Below, in pieces: positions 15,580-24,057 of a stretch of 38,767 nt of DNA. The stretch is from a virus, in IMG/VR virus record IMGVR_UViG_3300037493_002362, positions 1 through 38,767 of that record; one strand, given 5' to 3'. The notes below the pieces were generated by a model. That model ran no database searches. It saw nothing but the letters and a program-made list of their open reading frames with translations, and was not told the DNA's origin. Numbering within the stretch: the first letter of the stretch is position 1; each line of letters starts with the position of its first letter. The translations under genes were made by a program, and so were the position numbers.

Positions 15580-16026
15580 ATGAGCGAAGGAAAATTTATT
15601 AAAAAGAAAACATACTACACTGGTGTAGTGTATGAATGGAACTTACCGACTGGTAGTAGTTGCCCGTTTGCCTTAGAATGCAAAGTAACAGTTGATAGAA
15701 TATCGGGTAAGTTCGATGTTGAAAAAGGTGCGTATAGGTGCTACGCTGCAAGTGCTGAAAGATTCCCTGCTGTTAGGGAGCATAGGTGGAAAAATTTTGA
15801 CTTGGTTAAAAATAGTGGAATACCTACAATACCAAAAGATTGCAATGCAATAAGAATACACATGAGCGGTGATTTCTTTAACCAAAAATACTTTGATATG
15901 TGGGTGCAACTTGCAAAAGATAATCCCAATATTGAGATGTGGGCTTATACAAAGTCATTGCAATATTGGGTAAACAGAACCCAATCAACCCTCGAACGAT
16001 CGTTCCTGAAAAGTTGGCACAGCTGA
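15580..16026 (+). CDS. GP88-like protein, C-terminally truncated
   Basis: The 148-aa product resembles the GP88 family of phage proteins. It has the N-terminal LPTGSSCPFALEC motif, then YRCYAAS, a conserved RW-N, the IRIHMSGDFF segment and WAYTKSLQYWVN. Full members of the family are, as I recall, considerably longer. Here similarity ends at WVNR, about 15975, and the remaining 16 residues read a shifted ParB coding region. Codons are much more AT-rich than in the flanking genes. The biochemical function of the family is not established; conserved Cys suggest a metal or Fe-S site. It may be a remnant or a shortened active form. Confidence 0.65.
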   Translation: MSEGKFIKKKTYYTGVVYEWNLPTGSSCPFALECKVTVDRISGKFDVEKGAYRCYAASAERFPAVREHRWKNFDLVKNSGIPTIPKDCNAIRIHMSGDFFNQKYFDMWVQLAKDNPNIEMWAYTKSLQYWVNRTQSTLERSFLKSWHS

Positions 16027-16535
16027 AACAAAGTCTGACAGACTTCCCACAAATGCTCCTGCTCCGACCTATCGTAGTAGATGAAAATAATGTTCTATTG
16101 GGAGGCAATATGCGGCTTCGCGCTCTTAGAGAACTAGGCATCAAAGAGGTGTTAGTTCACGTGGTGTCCGGATGGACCGAAGAGCAGAAGAAGGAATTCA
16201 TTGTTAAAGACAATCTCAACTACGGTGACTGGAACTATTCGGTACTTGATTCATGGGATCAGGATAAGCTAGGCGCATGGGGTCTGACGACATGGTCGCT
16301 GAATCAGGAACAGAAAGAGATTCCCGAACCGTACACCAAACAGCAGCCGACAGGCGGTGATGCTCCTGCGCACGTTCCACACGTTCCGTCATTGAAGCTA
16401 CTGATCGACTTCAATATCAATGATTACCCTGAAGCTAGGCGACTGGTAGATACGTTGGTGGTAAGGGGCTTCGACTTCGAACAATTTCTACATGCGGCTC
16501 TGACCGAATCACTTAAAGCTACCGATGGCAATTAA
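15939..16535 (+). CDS. ParB-like nuclease-fold protein 1
   Basis: Reading from a GTG at 15939 gives 198 aa. The core is typical of the ParB/sulfiredoxin-like fold: NPRTI, LKQSLTDFPQML, RPIVVD, GGNMRLRALRELG, and FIVKDNLNYGDWN. The first ~12 residues lie in sequence that is also the end of the GP88-like gene, so the native N-terminus may have been replaced by recombination. A C-terminal domain of ~70 residues follows. ParB-like proteins are frequently linked to phage DNA-modification enzymes (Iyer and colleagues, 2013), where they may direct or sense modification. Confidence 0.75.
   Translation: MGLYKVIAILGKQNPINPRTIVPEKLAQLKQSLTDFPQMLLLRPIVVDENNVLLGGNMRLRALRELGIKEVLVHVVSGWTEEQKKEFIVKDNLNYGDWNYSVLDSWDQDKLGAWGLTTWSLNQEQKEIPEPYTKQQPTGGDAPAHVPHVPSLKLLIDFNINDYPEARRLVDTLVVRGFDFEQFLHAALTESLKATDGN
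15965..15985. repeat. Hairpin at the GP88/ParB junction
   Basis: ATTGGGT (15965-15971) and ACCCAAT (15979-15985) are perfect inverted repeats around seven bases. They lie exactly where GP88 similarity stops and ParB similarity starts, which marks a probable recombination or deletion breakpoint. Confidence 0.6.
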
Positions 16536-17094
16536 GCAGTACCCTATAGCGCACCTGAAGCCACACGCGGACAACCCAAGGGTAATTGACGATCACCGCA
16601 TGGCTACCCTAAAGCGGTCTATCGAAGACTTCCCTGAAATGTTGAAGATTCGACCTGTCGTTATTGATGAGGACAACACTATCCTAGCAGGAAATATGCG
16701 CTATCGGGCTTGTATGGAACTAGGCCATGAACAAGTATGGTGCGATCGGGTACGCGGTCTAACGGCTGAAGAAAAGCGTGAATTTGTAGTTAAGGACAAT
16801 GTAACCTATGGGCAATGGGATGATGAGGTGATCGAGCAGCACTTCAAAACAGACATGATGGAGCGGTGGACTGGCGATGCTACTATTGACTATGGCTTCC
16901 TAGACGAATTCATATCGATGGACGATGAACTAGCAGACAGGGCTAACGATGTTGTTCGCTCCATTGCGTTCCACCTACCCAATCTGTTCTACGAAGTTAA
17001 AGACATGGACGGTGCGCTTCGCGGTAATGGCGTTGACGTTGGTTCGGTGGTGGTGACCGCACTTAGATTAGCCGTAGCAGATGGTAAAGGTTGA
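16525..17094 (+). CDS. ParB-like nuclease-fold protein 2
   Basis: The 189-aa protein repeats the ParB-like core of its neighbour: DNPRVI, LKRSIEDFPEML, RPVVIDED, GNMRYRACMELG and FVVKDNVTYGQWD. The two are clearly related but diverged, and the C-terminal parts differ, so this is an old tandem duplication or two recruited paralogues. It overlaps the upstream gene by 11 bases and the downstream dioxygenase by 14, placing it in one translation unit with the modification enzymes. Confidence 0.85.
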   Translation: MAIKQYPIAHLKPHADNPRVIDDHRMATLKRSIEDFPEMLKIRPVVIDEDNTILAGNMRYRACMELGHEQVWCDRVRGLTAEEKREFVVKDNVTYGQWDDEVIEQHFKTDMMERWTGDATIDYGFLDEFISMDDELADRANDVVRSIAFHLPNLFYEVKDMDGALRGNGVDVGSVVVTALRLAVADGKG

Positions 17095-17863
17095 ACTATC
17101 AAGCGTTCCACATGACGTGAAGGTCGGGGACATCTGCTCTGACATAGAAGCTAACGTACTGGTAGATTCACTGTTCATGGAAGATGGGCGACCTATCGGC
17201 TTCTACCTGTCAAACATAGCTGCTCATTCGCATGAACTTTGGCGGCTTATTGAGGTGGCAAATGCCGAATTCAATTCCAAGCGTGTACCTAAGTCGGAAA
17301 TGCGTAGATCGAGCGGACTAGCCGACCCGTCAATGGAAGTGAAGCAATACTCTACCATCATCGGATCCGTTCCCTCGAAGCCCAACATGAGAAGGAACAG
17401 CCACAGGGTGTCGTCAGTTCATGGTGTACCGACCGCGCAGACCTTCATAAAGTCAATGCTACATGCTGCGCTCGAATCTGAACGGCTTATTGAAAAGTAT
17501 CTTCCACTTACCTACGCGGCTCAACGTGACTTGTTTGACAGGGAGATTCCGGAACATTGGCGATTCGGGAACCTGTTCACTTCATCAATATCCAACTTCA
17601 ATATAGCTGCTCCGTTCCACACCGATCGTGCGAATCTGCGCGATTGCGTTAATGTCATCATAGTCAAGAAACGATGGGCGAACGGTGGAAACACGACCGT
17701 ACCTGACTACGCTGCGACAATGAACTCCTGCGATAACTCGATGCTCGTTTACCCTGCATGGAAGTCTATTCACGGGGTCACACCGATTCACCTACTCAGG
17801 CGCGATGGCTACCGCAATTCCTTCGTGTTTTATCCGCTCAAAGCGTTCCGTAAGGATGCCTGA
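17081..17863 (+). CDS. TET/JBP-like Fe(II)/2-oxoglutarate DNA dioxygenase
   Basis: The 260-aa protein carries the iron-binding triad of this superfamily: His180 and Asp182 in PFHTD, and His231 in SIHGV, followed by Arg245 that would hold 2-oxoglutarate. The surrounding LFTSSISNFNIAAPFHTD, GG-TTVPDY and YPAWKSIHGVTPI segments match the TET/JBP family found in phages beside ParB-like genes. Family members oxidise the 5-methyl group of thymine or 5-methylcytosine in DNA. With no cytosine methylase or hydroxymethyl-dUMP synthase in sight, thymine is the favoured substrate (inference). Overlaps neighbours by 14 and 8 bases. Confidence 0.8.
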   Translation: MVKVELSSVPHDVKVGDICSDIEANVLVDSLFMEDGRPIGFYLSNIAAHSHELWRLIEVANAEFNSKRVPKSEMRRSSGLADPSMEVKQYSTIIGSVPSKPNMRRNSHRVSSVHGVPTAQTFIKSMLHAALESERLIEKYLPLTYAAQRDLFDREIPEHWRFGNLFTSSISNFNIAAPFHTDRANLRDCVNVIIVKKRWANGGNTTVPDYAATMNSCDNSMLVYPAWKSIHGVTPIHLLRRDGYRNSFVFYPLKAFRKDA

Positions 17864-18848
17864 AACGATCTTCGAGAATGTCGGCTTCGACCGGAGCGTG
17901 GTAAAATGGGAAGAACACCTGTATGACCTTACTCCTGTTGAGAAGCACGGGGCGGTATGGTTCAAACGGGAAGATAAATTCGCTCCACTAGGCTATGGGT
18001 CAATCAATGGAAGTAAACTAAGGCAATGTATTTGGCTGATTCGCGGCTTCGTTACCGAAAAACAAGCCAAGGGTATTGTATCAGGGTCGGTAGTCGGATC
18101 GCCACAGCACCCGATGATAGCGGCTATCTGTAAGCATTATGGCATCGGGTGTCTTATTGCCACACCTGCAGCCCGAATAGAAGATCATGAGTACCTGACT
18201 ATGGCTCGTGATTGGGGGGCTAAGTTTTACCGAACAAAGATAGGCTACGCGAAAGCCCTTCAAGCAACAGCCCTAAAGCTATCAAAGCGGCTATCTAGGC
18301 ATGAACTACTAGAAACTAACATCACGGTCGATGAACGACTGAACAGCGCACATAGGATAGCGGCATTCCATGAAGTGGGGTCGTATCAGGTGACTAACCT
18401 ACCGGAGCATATCGAAACGATAATCATACCTGCAGGGTCGTGTAATTCGGTGGTGTCGGTGCTGACTGGTATCATCAGGTTTAAGCCCAAGAACCTGAAA
18501 CGTGTCATAATGATGGGCATTGGAAATTACGGCTCAAAGAAGCCGCAGCACGTGCAACAACGGCTCAAAATTGTCGGCTCAATTATGGGCTTCGAACCCG
18601 ATGAATTTTTCAGTTACGCATGGTCGGCAGAACGTAATTCTCTGTCCATCGACATCATGCATCACGACCTTAACGGGTCGGGCTTCTGCTCGTATGCAGA
18701 CCTGATGCCGTTTCAAGAAAATGGAATTTCGTTCCACCCAAGATATGAAGGAAAAGTAATGAATTACATGCACGATAACCCTGACTTATTTGGCACTTTT
18801 CAGGACGATAAAACGCTATTTTGGATCATCGGAAGTGGTGTTTCTTGA
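17856..18848 (+). CDS. Fold-type II PLP-dependent enzyme
   Basis: I prefer the ATG at 17856 (330 aa, eight-base overlap) to an earlier one at 17805. FKREDKFAPLG and NGSKLRQ with Lys54 as the Schiff-base residue place it in the tryptophan-synthase-beta superfamily, near ACC deaminase and D-cysteine desulfhydrase. The phosphate loop reads IPAGSCNSV, where relatives often have GSGGT-like sequence. Related PLP enzymes are predicted in phage thymine-hypermodification operons to act on an amino-acid moiety attached to the base. The exact reaction is unknown. Fifteen bases after its stop a duplicated non-coding element begins. Confidence 0.8.
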   Translation: MPETIFENVGFDRSVVKWEEHLYDLTPVEKHGAVWFKREDKFAPLGYGSINGSKLRQCIWLIRGFVTEKQAKGIVSGSVVGSPQHPMIAAICKHYGIGCLIATPAARIEDHEYLTMARDWGAKFYRTKIGYAKALQATALKLSKRLSRHELLETNITVDERLNSAHRIAAFHEVGSYQVTNLPEHIETIIIPAGSCNSVVSVLTGIIRFKPKNLKRVIMMGIGNYGSKKPQHVQQRLKIVGSIMGFEPDEFFSYAWSAERNSLSIDIMHHDLNGSGFCSYADLMPFQENGISFHPRYEGKVMNYMHDNPDLFGTFQDDKTLFWIIGSGVS

Positions 18849-18862
18849 AAAACATGAAATGC

Positions 18863-18942
18863 ACGAGAACCCACTTTTGCGGCATTCTGAGCAACTATCT
18901 ATGTTGGAAGCTATGCCGTGTTAAGAAAGAAAAGATATTAGA
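18863..18942 (+). repeat. Duplicated non-coding element, copy A
   Basis: Two blocks are shared with 37944-38023: ACGAGAACCCACTTTT (16 bases, 18863-18878) and a 25-base purine-rich block starting GTGTTAAGAAAG (18918-18942). The blocks start 55 bases apart in both copies, with a partly conserved 39-base spacer. TAGATTTG, a -7-like box, overlaps the end of this copy (18939-18946) but is absent in the other. Function unknown: promoter, RNA element, origin or packaging signal are possible. Confidence 0.85.
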
Positions 18943-18994
18943 TTTGACTACGAAAAGTCACTGAAATTGACCAAAAGTTAAAAGCAAAAATTTC

Positions 18995-20098
18995 ATGCAA
19001 AAAGGTCGTTATTGCCACCTGAACGGGATAGAAGAAGTGACTGAATTACAGGCAGGAATGGACTTCCGATTGCCACAATATCGAAGGGAAGTTTTCATGC
19101 GGTTTTATGAATTTCACCTTCGGTATAAGGCACACGCAGGGGCTGTTTATTACGCAATTCCATTCATAATATCGCGGTATAATCTTGACATGGAGCAGCG
19201 TTTATGGTTCGCTTTCATCAATGGATGCACACAGAACATCATCACCACAAACATCATTTTTCAACGATTTCCTGACCTGCTCCTGCTCGATATTCAAGAA
19301 CTGGAACGGTACTTTCAAAGCCACTATTCGCAATTCGGATGGGACACAGACCGTAGGTATCACAAGTCGAATTTCATTGATTGTGTGCGGTCGTATCGGG
19401 CTTCGCTCGGTGGCGGCTCACAGGTAGATGTGATGGATCGGCTCACGGTGACTGGCGATCCGTTTCAGACCTTCCGGAACTATTGGGAGCATACCCGTAC
19501 TAAATTGCTGTCGTTCGGCAGACTATCCACCTTCAGCTATCTTGAATACCTGCGATTGGTCGGGGTGCAATTAGATTGCCCTGAACTATTCATTGACGAC
19601 CTGAGCGGAAGCAGGTCACATAGGAACGGGGTGTGCAAGGTGCTTGGTAGGGATGATATTGATTGGTGGAAACAACCCGAGCACCCGTATGACAAAGAGG
19701 GCATCGCGTGGTTGACCGATGAGGCGGCTCTGCTCCTGTCGGAAGCCAAGGCGCGAATAGATCACCCTGACGTTAGCTACTTCACGCTCGAAACAACTCT
19801 ATGCTGCTACAAGTCGTGGCATCGACCGAACAGAAGATACCCGAACGTGTATAACGATATGTTCTTCGAACGGATAATCTACGCGATGCAGAAGTGGCAA
19901 ACACGTGAAGTGGGTGAAATATGGTGGGAATGCAGAAGATTGTCGCTACCCAAACATCTGCTACTCGAAGCCAATAGGAATGACAAAGGGCTGCACCCGA
20001 TCAAACAGAACCACTATCGGCTTACCGGAGAAGTAATAATGATGGATCGTGAATACCCTTGCTTTAAAAACAGATACAATGACCGACACTCCAAGTAA
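18995..20098 (+). CDS. 5-hmU DNA kinase-type helical domain protein (aGPT-Pplase2-like)
   Basis: The 367-aa protein is mainly helical. Its N-terminal half (YRREVFMRFYEFHLRYKAHAG, then FINGCTQN and a following FP) resembles the helical domain that accompanies the P-loop kinase in phage 5-hydroxymethyluracil DNA kinases, originally predicted as a glutamyl/putrescinyl-thymine pyrophosphorylase clade. Later conserved-looking points are ETTLCCYKSWHR and RRYPNVYNDM. The kinase P-loop itself is encoded by the next gene, overlapping by 20 bases. Together they may form the enzyme that activates oxidised thymine for further modification. Recognition is by pattern only. Confidence 0.65.
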   Translation: MQKGRYCHLNGIEEVTELQAGMDFRLPQYRREVFMRFYEFHLRYKAHAGAVYYAIPFIISRYNLDMEQRLWFAFINGCTQNIITTNIIFQRFPDLLLLDIQELERYFQSHYSQFGWDTDRRYHKSNFIDCVRSYRASLGGGSQVDVMDRLTVTGDPFQTFRNYWEHTRTKLLSFGRLSTFSYLEYLRLVGVQLDCPELFIDDLSGSRSHRNGVCKVLGRDDIDWWKQPEHPYDKEGIAWLTDEAALLLSEAKARIDHPDVSYFTLETTLCCYKSWHRPNRRYPNVYNDMFFERIIYAMQKWQTREVGEIWWECRRLSLPKHLLLEANRNDKGLHPIKQNHYRLTGEVIMMDREYPCFKNRYNDRHSK

Positions 20099-20561
20099 CA
20101 TACTCCTGATTGGAAATTGTGGCGTGGGTAAGACATGGGTGATGCTCCAACTCATATCCCGTTTACGCATGAGCAAACAGGTCAAGTACAATAGGCTATG
20201 GTGGCTAACAAACGGTCGGGTCAACATGATTGGCAAGTATGACAGAACCGCGTGGCAAGGGTCGGATAAATTGTCCATGGCTGTGATGTTAGACGTACCT
20301 GCGTACCTAGACTCGTTTAGCGACAAGTACACCGTATGGGAAGGTGATCGATTCACTAACAGCAAGTTCATTGCAAAAGCAAAGCCCTTCATCATTCGAA
20401 TTGAAGGGTCGGGTGAAACGGGAAGATACCTTCGCGGCTCTGAACAGTCAGAACGCCACCTTAAAGCAATCGCAACAAGGGTGTCTAACATTCCTGCTAA
20501 CATGACCGTTGAAAGTAGTAAGGCGGCTCTTGATTACATTTGCTCACTATACGACTTCTAA
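20079..20561 (+). CDS. P-loop 5-hmU DNA kinase-like protein
   Basis: I chose the ATG at 20079 (160 aa); a GTG at 20049 is less likely. A Walker A motif, GNCGVGKT, lies at 12-19; KYDRTAWQGSDKLSMAVM follows at about 53-70 and WEGDRFTN at 87-94, which is the signature of the kinase domain that phosphorylates 5-hydroxymethyluracil in phage DNA. A basic helix, SERHLKAIATRVSNI, closes the domain. The gene ends two bases before the terminase small subunit, tying modification to the packaging operon. Confidence 0.75.
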   Translation: MTDTPSNILLIGNCGVGKTWVMLQLISRLRMSKQVKYNRLWWLTNGRVNMIGKYDRTAWQGSDKLSMAVMLDVPAYLDSFSDKYTVWEGDRFTNSKFIAKAKPFIIRIEGSGETGRYLRGSEQSERHLKAIATRVSNIPANMTVESSKAALDYICSLYDF

Positions 20562-20562
20562 G

Positions 20563-20895
20563 ATGGAACAGAACAGAACCGAACATACTAAAAAGGCAAT
20601 GGTAGCCGCTTTGACTAAGACTTTAGGGGTGGTTACTCCTGCTCTGAAGATGGCTGACGTTGGCAGAACAACCTTCTATCAATGGTTGAAAGACGACCCT
20701 GAATTCGCGCAAGAGGTGGACGATCTTGATGATGTGTCGCTCGACTTCGCTGTCCATGCCCTGCATAAGAAGATTAAGAACGGGAATATTGCTGCGATTA
20801 TCTTCTACCTCAAAACGCAGGGCAAACATAGGGGCTTTGTCGAGCGTACCGAAACGGTGTTCACAGACATTAATGTGGAAATGACCGATGATTAA
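20563..20895 (+). CDS. terS: Terminase small subunit
   Basis: From the ATG at 20563 the protein is 110 aa. An N-terminal helix-turn-helix (LGVVTPALKMADVGRTTFYQWLKDD) is followed by a helical region and AIIFYLKTQGKHRGFVER, a common TerS pattern. It recognises the packaging start on phage DNA and loads the large subunit. It overlaps terL by eight bases. Confidence 0.85.
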   Translation: MEQNRTEHTKKAMVAALTKTLGVVTPALKMADVGRTTFYQWLKDDPEFAQEVDDLDDVSLDFAVHALHKKIKNGNIAAIIFYLKTQGKHRGFVERTETVFTDINVEMTDD

Positions 20896-22252
20896 ACGGT
20901 CACGAGCGCAAACGGGTGTGCAGGTTCGAATTCCGATGGGTGTCTTTCTACCTGTCTATCGACACTTGGTAAACTCCACCGCTGACATAGATTTCCTTTG
21001 GGGCGGTCGTGATAGTGGCAAGAGCACGTTCGTTGCGGAAGTGCTGCTGATTGAATGTATGACCCTACCGTATTTCCGCTGCATTCTAATCAAAAAGACC
21101 CATGAGAGCATAAAGGACGCGCAGTGGCAAACGCTAAAGGACATAGCCGAACGGTGGGGTGTGGCTCACCTGTTTAGCTTTAGCAAAAGCCCTCTTGAAA
21201 TTCGCTGTCGAAACGGGAACAAGTTCATATCAAGAGGGTGTGACAAGCCGGAAAAGATTAAGTCTATCAATAACCCATCGCACGTGTGGTATGAAGAGGG
21301 CAATCAGTTGTCTGCTGACGACATGATCGTGATAAGTACGACCCTGCGCTCGAATCAGGGCAAGGTGAAACAGTACTTTAGCTTTAACCCTGAAGCCGAT
21401 GGCGACTACACGAAACATTGGCTATGGCTATACTTCAAGGATCATATTCCAACAGGTGTCTATTCTTTTGAAAATGTTCTGCGAGTACCTGATGGCAAGG
21501 GTGGAACGCTGAACATAAGCTACACTTCCACGCACTCGACCTACCACAACAATCCCTACTGCACGAATGAGCGGAAAGCGGTGTTAGAGAACCTAAGGAC
21601 AATTGACGAATACTACTATGAGGTATTCACGCTCGGACGGTGGGGAAACAGGTCGAACGAAAGACCGTTCGTATTCGCATACGAGCCTAGCAAACACAAT
21701 GGTACTCCTGCGCTCAATAATGAAGAGGTACTGTACCTGTCGTTCGACTTTAACCGCAACCCGATTTGCTGTTCTGTTATTCAGCACTATGACGGGGCGG
21801 TGTATGTCCTGCGCACGATCAAAATAGCCAACAGTTCAATCTACGAACTATGTGACCGCATAAAGACGCTCTACCCAAGGTCGCTGTTCATGGTGACTGG
21901 CGATGCAACAGGTCGGGCTTCGTCTGCATTGGTGCAGGATAACATGAACTACTACAAGGTGATAATGCAGTCGCTCGGACTAGGAATGATGCAGCTACGT
22001 GTACCTAAGGCGAACCCACGCATGAAGGACAATAGGCTAATAGTCAATGCTGTATTGGCTAACTACCCTGTCACGGTGCATGAGGTCGATGCGCATGAAC
22101 TTTTGGCGGACTTCAAGCAGGTTCGGTGCAATCCTGATGGCACTATTGAAAAAGGCAACCGTGATGACCCTGCCCAACAAGCCGATGCGCTCGACACATT
22201 CCGTTATTGGTGCAACGCAATTATGCTACCCTACATTAATTTAGCAACTTAG
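20888..22252 (+). CDS. terL: Terminase large subunit
   Basis: The 454-aa protein has Walker A GGRDSGKST at 39-47, Walker B HVWYEEGNQ around 132-140 and the coupling FSFNPE around 164-168. The C-terminal nuclease domain shows Asp286 in LSFDFNRNP, Asp338 in VTGDATG and a final acidic cluster (DPAQQADALD). It pumps DNA into the prohead and cuts it. Length is near the family norm. It follows the modification island, while the portal gene is 13 kb downstream. Confidence 0.95.
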   Translation: MIKRSRAQTGVQVRIPMGVFLPVYRHLVNSTADIDFLWGGRDSGKSTFVAEVLLIECMTLPYFRCILIKKTHESIKDAQWQTLKDIAERWGVAHLFSFSKSPLEIRCRNGNKFISRGCDKPEKIKSINNPSHVWYEEGNQLSADDMIVISTTLRSNQGKVKQYFSFNPEADGDYTKHWLWLYFKDHIPTGVYSFENVLRVPDGKGGTLNISYTSTHSTYHNNPYCTNERKAVLENLRTIDEYYYEVFTLGRWGNRSNERPFVFAYEPSKHNGTPALNNEEVLYLSFDFNRNPICCSVIQHYDGAVYVLRTIKIANSSIYELCDRIKTLYPRSLFMVTGDATGRASSALVQDNMNYYKVIMQSLGLGMMQLRVPKANPRMKDNRLIVNAVLANYPVTVHEVDAHELLADFKQVRCNPDGTIEKGNRDDPAQQADALDTFRYWCNAIMLPYINLAT

Positions 22253-23154: not shown

Positions 23155-23419
23155 AGCAAGGCTCGAACTCAATAGTGAGGCTGACTACCCTGAGCGAACG
23201 CTATGTCAGGTGAACCGCGAAATGTACAGGCTATTGAAAACTAAAGGCATCACCGATGAGGATCCTGCTATCAGGTTACTCTACGAAGCGTATGACATGG
23301 GAAAGAAGTTGAACAACAAACTGCGACAATACAAGTACAACTATGACGATGGGTGGTGGTCTGAAAATAAACTATCGGGCGGCAACCTATGGGATGATGA
23401 CGAAATAACACCCGTATGA
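23144..23419 (+). CDS. Hypothetical protein, 91 aa
   Basis: The start at 23144 overlaps the upstream gene by 11 bases. The C-terminal part is acidic and aromatic (YNYDDGWWSE, LWDDDE). Its stop overlaps the methyltransferase start. Function unknown. Confidence 0.5.
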   Translation: MATEARLELNSEADYPERTLCQVNREMYRLLKTKGITDEDPAIRLLYEAYDMGKKLNNKLRQYKYNYDDGWWSENKLSGGNLWDDDEITPV

Positions 23420-24057
23420 AAGTAACCTATATCGATGTTGGGCTTCATCGCTCTGCTCCGGAAGTAAGTATGTTCATTCAGGTGTGCGAACGGCTCGGAC
23501 TAGATTATCACGTCTATGGCATTGAAGCCGACCCGTTGTATGCTCCTGATCTTGTGGCACTATTTGCCGACAACCCTAAGGTCGAAATATTCTCGTTCGC
23601 TGTCGCTGCTGAAGATGGTACGTGTCGGCTGTACAGGTCTGCATTCCTAAACGGGGAAGGGTCGTCAATCTACGCCACAAAGAACAACGTAGATCCATCA
23701 GATTCCGTGGAAGTTCTGTCGCGGAAACTATCGGGCTTTATGAAGGGAATTGACCTGCATGACGCAGTTGTCCTGAAGTGGAATATCGAAGGGGCTGAGT
23801 ACCCAATGATGAACGACCTAATTGAGTCGGGGCTTTACCGCAATATTGACCTTTGGTGCGGAGCAGGTTCCGATATGTACAAGGTGGCGGAGTTAGCCGA
23901 ACTAGAGTATAGCTACCACTTGGCGATGCTGCAGCACGGTATAGGGCAATTCAAGTTCCACGATCACTACGACCCATGGCTAAAGAAGCGGATGATTGAT
24001 GAAATGGAATTCAGGCTGACCGCACTTCGCGATGCCTACTACCTACGCCATGCGTAG
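23416..24057 (+). CDS. FkbM-family methyltransferase
   Basis: The 213-aa protein has the Rossmann-type layout of FkbM methyltransferases, with IEADP at 36-40 for SAM binding and KWNIEGAE at 121-128 as the family's motif near the active site. FkbM enzymes O-methylate sugars and other small groups. It runs head-on into a glycosyltransferase gene on the other strand with a 19-base overlap. The two plus a third gene may form a glycan-modifying cassette acting on virion proteins, DNA or host surface (inference). Confidence 0.8.
   Translation: MKVTYIDVGLHRSAPEVSMFIQVCERLGLDYHVYGIEADPLYAPDLVALFADNPKVEIFSFAVAAEDGTCRLYRSAFLNGEGSSIYATKNNVDPSDSVEVLSRKLSGFMKGIDLHDAVVLKWNIEGAEYPMMNDLIESGLYRNIDLWCGAGSDMYKVAELAELEYSYHLAMLQHGIGQFKFHDHYDPWLKKRMIDEMEFRLTALRDAYYLRHA

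Follow-up and report, generated by a model that had tools for sequence, protein, structure and literature searches.

A TET-family dioxygenase, an amino acid:DNA transferase and a PLP enzyme in a candidate thymine hypermodification operon beside the terminase genes of a virus

How could a phage hypermodify the thymines in its DNA if no enzyme making hydroxymethyl-dUMP can be seen in its genome? The question is raised by the IMG/VR virus record IMGVR_UViG_3300037493_002362, of which the whole stretch of 38,767 nucleotides was analyzed (hereafter the window). Positions 15939-20561 contain six open reading frames (ORFs), which an initial annotation had interpreted as an island that oxidizes thymine in finished DNA, phosphorylates it and adds or remodels an amino-acid-derived group. 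All six proved to be open on the plus strand, and in agreement with that annotation no match to PF00303, the thymidylate synthase (TS) family that includes hydroxymethyl-dUMP synthases, was found in the window. With a probability of roughly three in four, we read the island as a post-replicative thymine hypermodification operon, in which a TET/JBP-family dioxygenase would provide 5-hydroxymethyluracil (5hmU) for a P-loop kinase, an amino acid:DNA transferase (ADDT) and a pyridoxal phosphate (PLP) enzyme.

The dioxygenase had been predicted from the residues His180, Asp182, His231 and Arg245, and these are in place: among 89 non-redundant phage TETs, the first three never vary and the arginine is conserved in all but one. 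The protein matches phrog_6059 (E 1.7e-44) and, below the cut-off of 34.9 bits, PF12851 (E 5.8e-6, 26.1 bits). Searching the PDB by sequence with the TET profile gave no match, and neither did a profile of the TETs linked to C5-cytosine methyltransferases. An AlphaFold2 model predicted from window and viral-contig sequences only had a mean confidence (pLDDT) of 92.1; its first 26 PDB matches are all TET2, CcTet, CMD1 or NgTET1, outranking FTO and AlkB. The closest named homologue is that of cyanophage MED4-184 with 47% identity. From its context, the enzyme can be predicted to hydroxylate the 5-methyl group of thymine in DNA. The database name of phrog_6059, queuine tRNA-ribosyltransferase, was rejected, since the protein matches PF12851 and has the TET fold. 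A 7-deazaguanine (Dpd/queuine) modification was rejected as well, as the phrog_6059 match is a TET/JBP protein and no Tgt/DpdA-like transglycosylase was found in the window. The misnomer has been propagated to other annotations, for example that of MED4-184.

What had been described merely as a helical-domain protein is indeed part of the island but can be identified as the ADDT (PF18724 E 2.5e-19, 70.4 bits against a cut-off of 26.2; phrog_3271 E 8e-77). It is 41% identical to Bane2 gp3 and 29% identical to ViI orf247, and it has 42 invariant positions in common with the ADDTs of Bane2, Montesquieu, phiA8-29 and ViI; a PDB sequence search with the ADDT profile returned no match. The assignment of the preceding gene to fold-type II PLP enzymes with a catalytic Lys54 held up. 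The protein matches phrog_3650 (E 6e-78) and, under the cut-off, PF00291 (E 1e-6), and Lys54, the predicted aldimine lysine, is invariant across 28 aligned sequences. Its AlphaFold2 model (pLDDT 94.6) matches D-cysteine desulfhydrase and 1-aminocyclopropane-1-carboxylate deaminase, which places it in fold type II. It can be aligned with ViI orf226 and phiA8-29, and M6 gp52 is found in a different PHROG. The amino-acid adduct is its predicted substrate. A scan with the window PLP enzyme alone as query, the peptide patterns of which were too specific, gave nothing, and PLP genes were located via the ADDT loci.

The last gene had been described as a P-loop kinase of the 5-hmU DNA kinase pattern. 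Profile-profile comparison agrees that it is a kinase, but judged by that comparison it probably belongs to the PF18751 branch and not to PF18748. Comparison by hhalign with the PF18751 kinases of actinophages gave a probability of 99.1 (E 2e-18, 153 columns), while hmmscan gives no PF18751 report despite this strong match. The match to the ViI and M6 5-hmdU kinases is weaker and indicates distant homology only (probability 92, E 6e-7); these two match PF18748, whereas the Pfam scan found no PF18748 match for the window kinase. In tblastn, the Melnitz kinase was matched with E 1e-5. Motifs GxxGxGK(S/T), GSDKL and EGDRF are conserved, an IGKYD...G-D-x-L stretch is shared with the ViI kinase, and a PDB search with the kinase profile gave generic P-loop matches only. 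Translation more likely starts at the ATG at 20079 than at 20049. The family phrog_800, labelled terminase small subunit, includes the ViI and M6 kinases as well as Bane2 gp4; the label is misleading because the ViI and M6 kinases are members. It has passed into annotations such as that of Bane2 gp4. Both phrog_800 and phrog_6059 carry database names that mislead and are corrected here.

To compare the island with other loci, viral contigs were scanned with an ADDT profile, which yielded 80 loci that fall into 46 clusters at 80% ADDT identity. Loci were annotated with hidden Markov models built for this analysis, and the trees are quick ones in which long branches were flagged. A TET gene is present in 29 of the 46 clusters, 28 of them with a PF18751-like kinase and none with a TS or a PF18748 kinase. 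Nine clusters contain a TS, always together with a PF18748 kinase and never with a TET, a PF18751-like kinase or a ParB. The remaining eight have neither TET nor TS, although one (L029) has a TET elsewhere in the record. This dichotomy is significant (Fisher p 2e-5), with the caveat that the clusters are related and not fully independent. Searches of whole records gave the same picture, with PF00303 in none of 30 TET+ADDT records and PF12851 in none of 16 records with TS and ADDT. The routes are interleaved in the ADDT and PLP trees, where well-supported branches force at least three route changes, so this module has switched between the two front ends repeatedly. Read most simply, the two routes converge on one intermediate, 5-hydroxymethyl-dU in DNA, which the shared module then processes; this argues for thymine as the substrate of the TET.

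The order of oxidation, phosphorylation, addition and remodelling suggested by the initial annotation is thus the best supported one as an inference, because the same ADDT/PLP module is found in precursor-fed phages such as ViI. The TET would convert thymine in phage DNA to 5-hydroxymethyl-dU by hydroxylating its 5-methyl group, and the kinase would phosphorylate the hydroxyl to create a leaving group. The ADDT would then exchange the phosphate for an amino acid, and the PLP enzyme would remodel the adduct, probably by decarboxylation, to an aminoalkyl thymine. In ViI, serine is added and then decarboxylated. For the island, a product like 5-(2-aminoethoxy)methyl-dU (5-NeOmdU) can be predicted because its PLP enzyme is homologous to ViI orf226 and ViI DNA carries this base, which replaces about 40% of T (PMC11721090); that the product is exactly 5-NeOmdU is a tentative proposal. 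Loading or spreading of the enzymes on phage DNA would probably be the task of the ParB-like proteins, and the adjacent terminase would package DNA whose small amino-acid-derived groups on thymine may shield it from bacterial defences. More generally, we lean towards a model of two interchangeable front ends, a nucleotide route (TS and PF18748 kinase) or oxidation of thymine within the DNA (ParB, TET and a PF18751-type kinase beside the terminase), with 5hmU on the TET route as a hub for swapped cassettes (amino acid/PLP, glycosyl, FkbM methyl or sulfo); the island would then yield 5-NeOmdU or a near relative without a modified nucleotide pool.

The enzymes are of known types, but the first step would not be the one that laboratory work has established in thymine-modifying phages. 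If the proposal is correct, hypermodified thymine requires neither replacement of the nucleotide pool nor an adapted polymerase, and modification after replication, perhaps restricted to ParB-marked sites and to the time immediately before packaging, would be within reach of a small-genome phage. Phages would also be a source of enzymes for adding amines to thymines in DNA and of DNA-level thymine hydroxylases, whose reaction would parallel the initial step in the making of base J. Near-identical islands in cultured phages, such as the Mycobacterium smegmatis phage Bane2, make the proposal directly testable.

Several points weigh against a thymine hypermodification operon. For this phage and all relatives compared, genes are what the scheme is drawn from. 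The enzyme families are confirmed by profile, alignment or fold, but the kinase passes no Pfam cut-off and was assigned by BLAST and profile-profile comparison only. The N-terminus of the first ParB-like protein is chimeric, the metagenomic TS homologues are only assumed to make hydroxymethyl-dUMP, and a gene that seems to be missing could be located outside the window, which is classed as linear. In addition, the only published phage TET activity known to us acts on 5-methylcytosine.

The last point leads to the alternative that survives best, although we consider it unlikely: the TET would oxidize 5-methylcytosine, and kinase, ADDT and PLP enzyme would decorate 5-hydroxymethylcytosine, as in the phage TET cytosine pathway. 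Phage TETs reportedly oxidize 5-methylcytosine (a finding ascribed to Burke et al. in 2021), and Methylophilales phage Melnitz groups a C5-methyltransferase, a TET and a related P-loop kinase closely. However, the C5-cytosine methyltransferase that partners the TET in such pathways is absent from the window (no PF00145 match), and such an enzyme was found in only one of the 30 TET+ADDT records. A C5-methyltransferase is present in 66 of the 71 loci that encode relatives of the Melnitz TET, and an ADDT in none. The TETs linked to this methyltransferase form a clade of their own with one exception: the label requires two changes in the TET tree, and their branch includes a single row in which no methyltransferase was found (L223), which begins at a contig end. 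Of the 112 TET loci that lack a C5-methyltransferase, 82 have TerL downstream of TET at a distance of up to 6 kb, versus none of the 17 that have one; both counts may be too low, since members of this phage group served as seeds for the TerL profile. The base pocket may differ, too. At the position of TET2 His1904 and NgTet1 His297, aligned not by superposition but by spacing from the 2-oxoglutarate arginine, Asp is found in 12 of 13 methyltransferase-linked TETs, Leu in the lineage of the window and Arg in a third, ADDT-linked lineage. An Asp is able to act as acceptor for cytosine N4 and an Arg as donor for thymine O4, a difference that is suggestive only. Both histidines contact the base (PMC4224472). 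Finally, the characterized ADDT systems, those of ViI and M6, act on 5hmdU (PMC6449724).

A second alternative accepts that thymine is oxidized and phosphorylated but assumes that the PLP enzyme or the ADDT is decayed or has another substrate, leaving 5hmU or phosphorylated 5hmU as the final base. Some relatives, for example Terij, do have TET and kinase without ADDT, and the first ParB-like gene of the window is a fusion remnant; against this, the ORFs are full length and ADDT, PLP enzyme and TET retain the invariant residues of their families, which makes such decay improbable. Least probable is that the island modifies host DNA or marks a few regulatory sites, to which ParB-like proteins could confine the enzymes, given the terminase linkage in 82 of 112 loci and the kinship with modules that modify phage DNA genome-wide.

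A thymine hypermodification operon built around a TET is not a new idea, since the TET-ADDT-kinase combination is already in the literature as a prediction, which is said to originate with Iyer et al. in 2013. As far as we checked, three points are new: a TET-fed island with a PLP enzyme of the ViI type, the dichotomy of routes and the evidence that the partner of TET is a swappable cassette. One example of the known combination is Rhodococcus phage Tonitrus, for which a thymidine hypermodification system with TET-like protein, ADDT and kinase was predicted (PMC11955845, 2025). As in the window, genes for ParB, TET-like protein, ADDT (aGPT-Pplase2) and a kinase, in Tonitrus a PF18751 member, precede the terminase in this order, and the Tonitrus record has no TS homologue. 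It differs in that the gene set described contains no PLP enzyme, its ADDT is nearer to M6 gp51 in BLASTP and its TET is only 26% identical; the system is a prediction only. Mycobacterium Coopervirus Bane2 encodes in gp1-gp5 a contiguous series of ParB-like protein, TET, ADDT (41% identity), PF18751 kinase and terminase, again without a PLP gene; in the annotation, the products are hypothetical proteins and the kinase bears the name small terminase. Gordonia phage LittleMunchkin has the same order upstream of its terminase. The window shares with the TET-fed type of Tonitrus and Bane2 the ParB-like genes and TET upstream of the terminase and the ADDT beside the TET. With the precursor-fed type of ViI and M6 it shares the ADDT and the ViI-type PLP enzyme, but it lacks the TS-family synthase and the PF18748 kinase. 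In Salmonella phage ViI (Vi01), ADDT orf247 and PLP enzyme orf226 are homologous to the window proteins, whereas a TS-family enzyme makes 5hmU at the nucleotide level, the kinase belongs to PF18748, a TET is absent and the genes are scattered. Glutamicibacter phage Montesquieu, a precursor-fed example, combines ADDT, PLP enzyme and a PF18751-like kinase in one operon but has, by annotation, a thymidylate synthase/pyrimidine hydroxymethylase and aGPT-Pplase1 and no TET. The cytosine pathway of the Melnitz type shares the TET family and, in many loci, a related P-loop kinase nearby; there, however, a C5-methyltransferase adjoins the TET, which belongs to a separate clade, ADDT is absent and the locus is not at the terminase. 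Cyanophages MED4-184 and MED4-117 have the ParB-...-TET-TerS-TerL locus, but an FkbM methyltransferase replaces PLP enzyme, ADDT and kinase.

That last case is one of many. The 80 loci nearest to the window TET mostly follow the pattern ParB-[X]-TET-TerS-TerL, in which X is a TAGT-type glycosyltransferase (PF20691; profile built from the full TAGT cluster) in 34 loci and an FkbM methyltransferase, placed between ParB and TET, in 21. A sulfotransferase stands next to the glycosyltransferase in four, and elsewhere a glutamine amidotransferase, ADDT and kinase set is found. In the TET tree, well-supported branches force the ADDT label to change at least eight times, so the decorating cassettes around a single oxidase have repeatedly been exchanged.

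Individual loci show further combinations. ParB, TAGT-like glycosyltransferase, sulfotransferase (PF03567 E 5e-15) and TET, all overlapping, are encoded in L163 (974-3693; likewise in L154, L156 and L173), which suggests a phage DNA base with a sulfated sugar. In MED4-184 (L002, 15790-19577) and 21 viral contigs, the FkbM methyltransferase gene lies immediately 5' of TET at the terminase locus, and an O-methylated 5-hydroxymethyl base is possible. One operon of Arthrobacter phage Prairie (L245, 4499-7999) comprises ParB, an oxidoreductase with a TET match, a glycosyltransferase and a 'glucosaminyl deacetylase', with an amino-sugar on DNA as a possible product. A class II glutamine amidotransferase, a divergent ADDT and a kinase adjoin TET in L110 (1486-3591), L133, L138, L139 and L157; PF13522 was detected in L110 and L138 and no PLP enzyme was found in these loci, which perhaps make an amide or amine derived from glutamine. 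In Methylophilales phage Melnitz-3 (L013, 4010-8090), C5-cytosine methyltransferase, TET, a 427-aa protein and a PF18751-like kinase are consecutive, a pattern seen again in many of the 71 related loci, which suggests phosphorylated or further modified 5-hydroxymethylcytosine.

The two ParB-like proteins noticed in the initial annotation both match phrog_620 (E 1.9e-20 and 2.2e-23) and, under the Pfam cut-off, PF02195 (E 0.0013 and 0.00037), and they are 46% identical to each other. ParB occurs in 20 of the 29 TET-fed ADDT clusters versus none of the nine TS-fed ones. From this linkage to the TET route we conjecture that it loads or spreads the enzymes. A survey of ParB folds (PMC12704722) describes phage members that are fused to predicted DNA methyltransferases, which fits such a targeting role. 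Upstream, a GP88-family gene (PF17338, 15580-16026) is truncated at its C-terminus and joined to the first ParB gene at about 15976, so that the first ~11 codons of the latter (15939-15976) are GP88 sequence read out of frame. The GC content around the junction is 37% versus 48% window-wide, and full-length GP88 is found downstream of TET in the relatives L167, L169, L171 and L172. The junction is either a natural deletion or recombination junction or an assembly chimera.

Coordinates of the island genes and their neighbours in the window
Feature	Coordinates	Strand	Evidence
ParB-like protein 1, ParB/Srx CTPase-type N-terminal domain	15939..16535	+	GTG start; phrog_620, PF02195
ParB-like protein 2	16525..17094	+	phrog_620, PF02195
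TET/JBP-family Fe(II)/2-oxoglutarate dioxygenase	17081..17863	+	PF12851, phrog_6059, fold, active site
Fold-type II PLP enzyme, ViI orf226 homologue	17856..18848	+	phrog_3650, Lys54, fold
ADDT (alpha-glutamyl/putrescinyl thymine pyrophosphorylase clade 2)	18995..20098	+	PF18724, phrog_3271
P-loop kinase, PF18751/5-hmdU DNA kinase kind	20049..20561	+	hhalign, tblastn, motifs
Small terminase-like helix-turn-helix protein (TerS), context	20563..20895	+	phrog_309 and phrog_24579 (terminase small subunit), E 2e-6
Terminase large subunit (TerL), context	20888..22252	+	PF04466 E 2.7e-34
FkbM-type S-adenosylmethionine methyltransferase, 3' of TerL	23416..24057	+	PF05050 E 6.1e-6, over cut-off

As first described, the island genes run in one direction, mostly overlapping, and lie next to the terminase: neighbours share a few bases with the sole exception of a 146-base gap between the PLP and ADDT genes, and TerS and TerL come directly after the kinase gene. 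A TerS-like protein is also encoded 3' of TET in 21 related loci. The arrangement is not due to chance, because dozens of diverged viral contigs and also named actinophages show it; in a scan of genome contigs, the matches were only four metagenome-assembled contigs from unrelated phyla. The FkbM-type protein 3' of TerL is a possible late modifier. The gap between the PLP and ADDT genes (18849-18994) contains a small ORF with a cysteine, MKCTRTHFCGILSNYLCWKLC...

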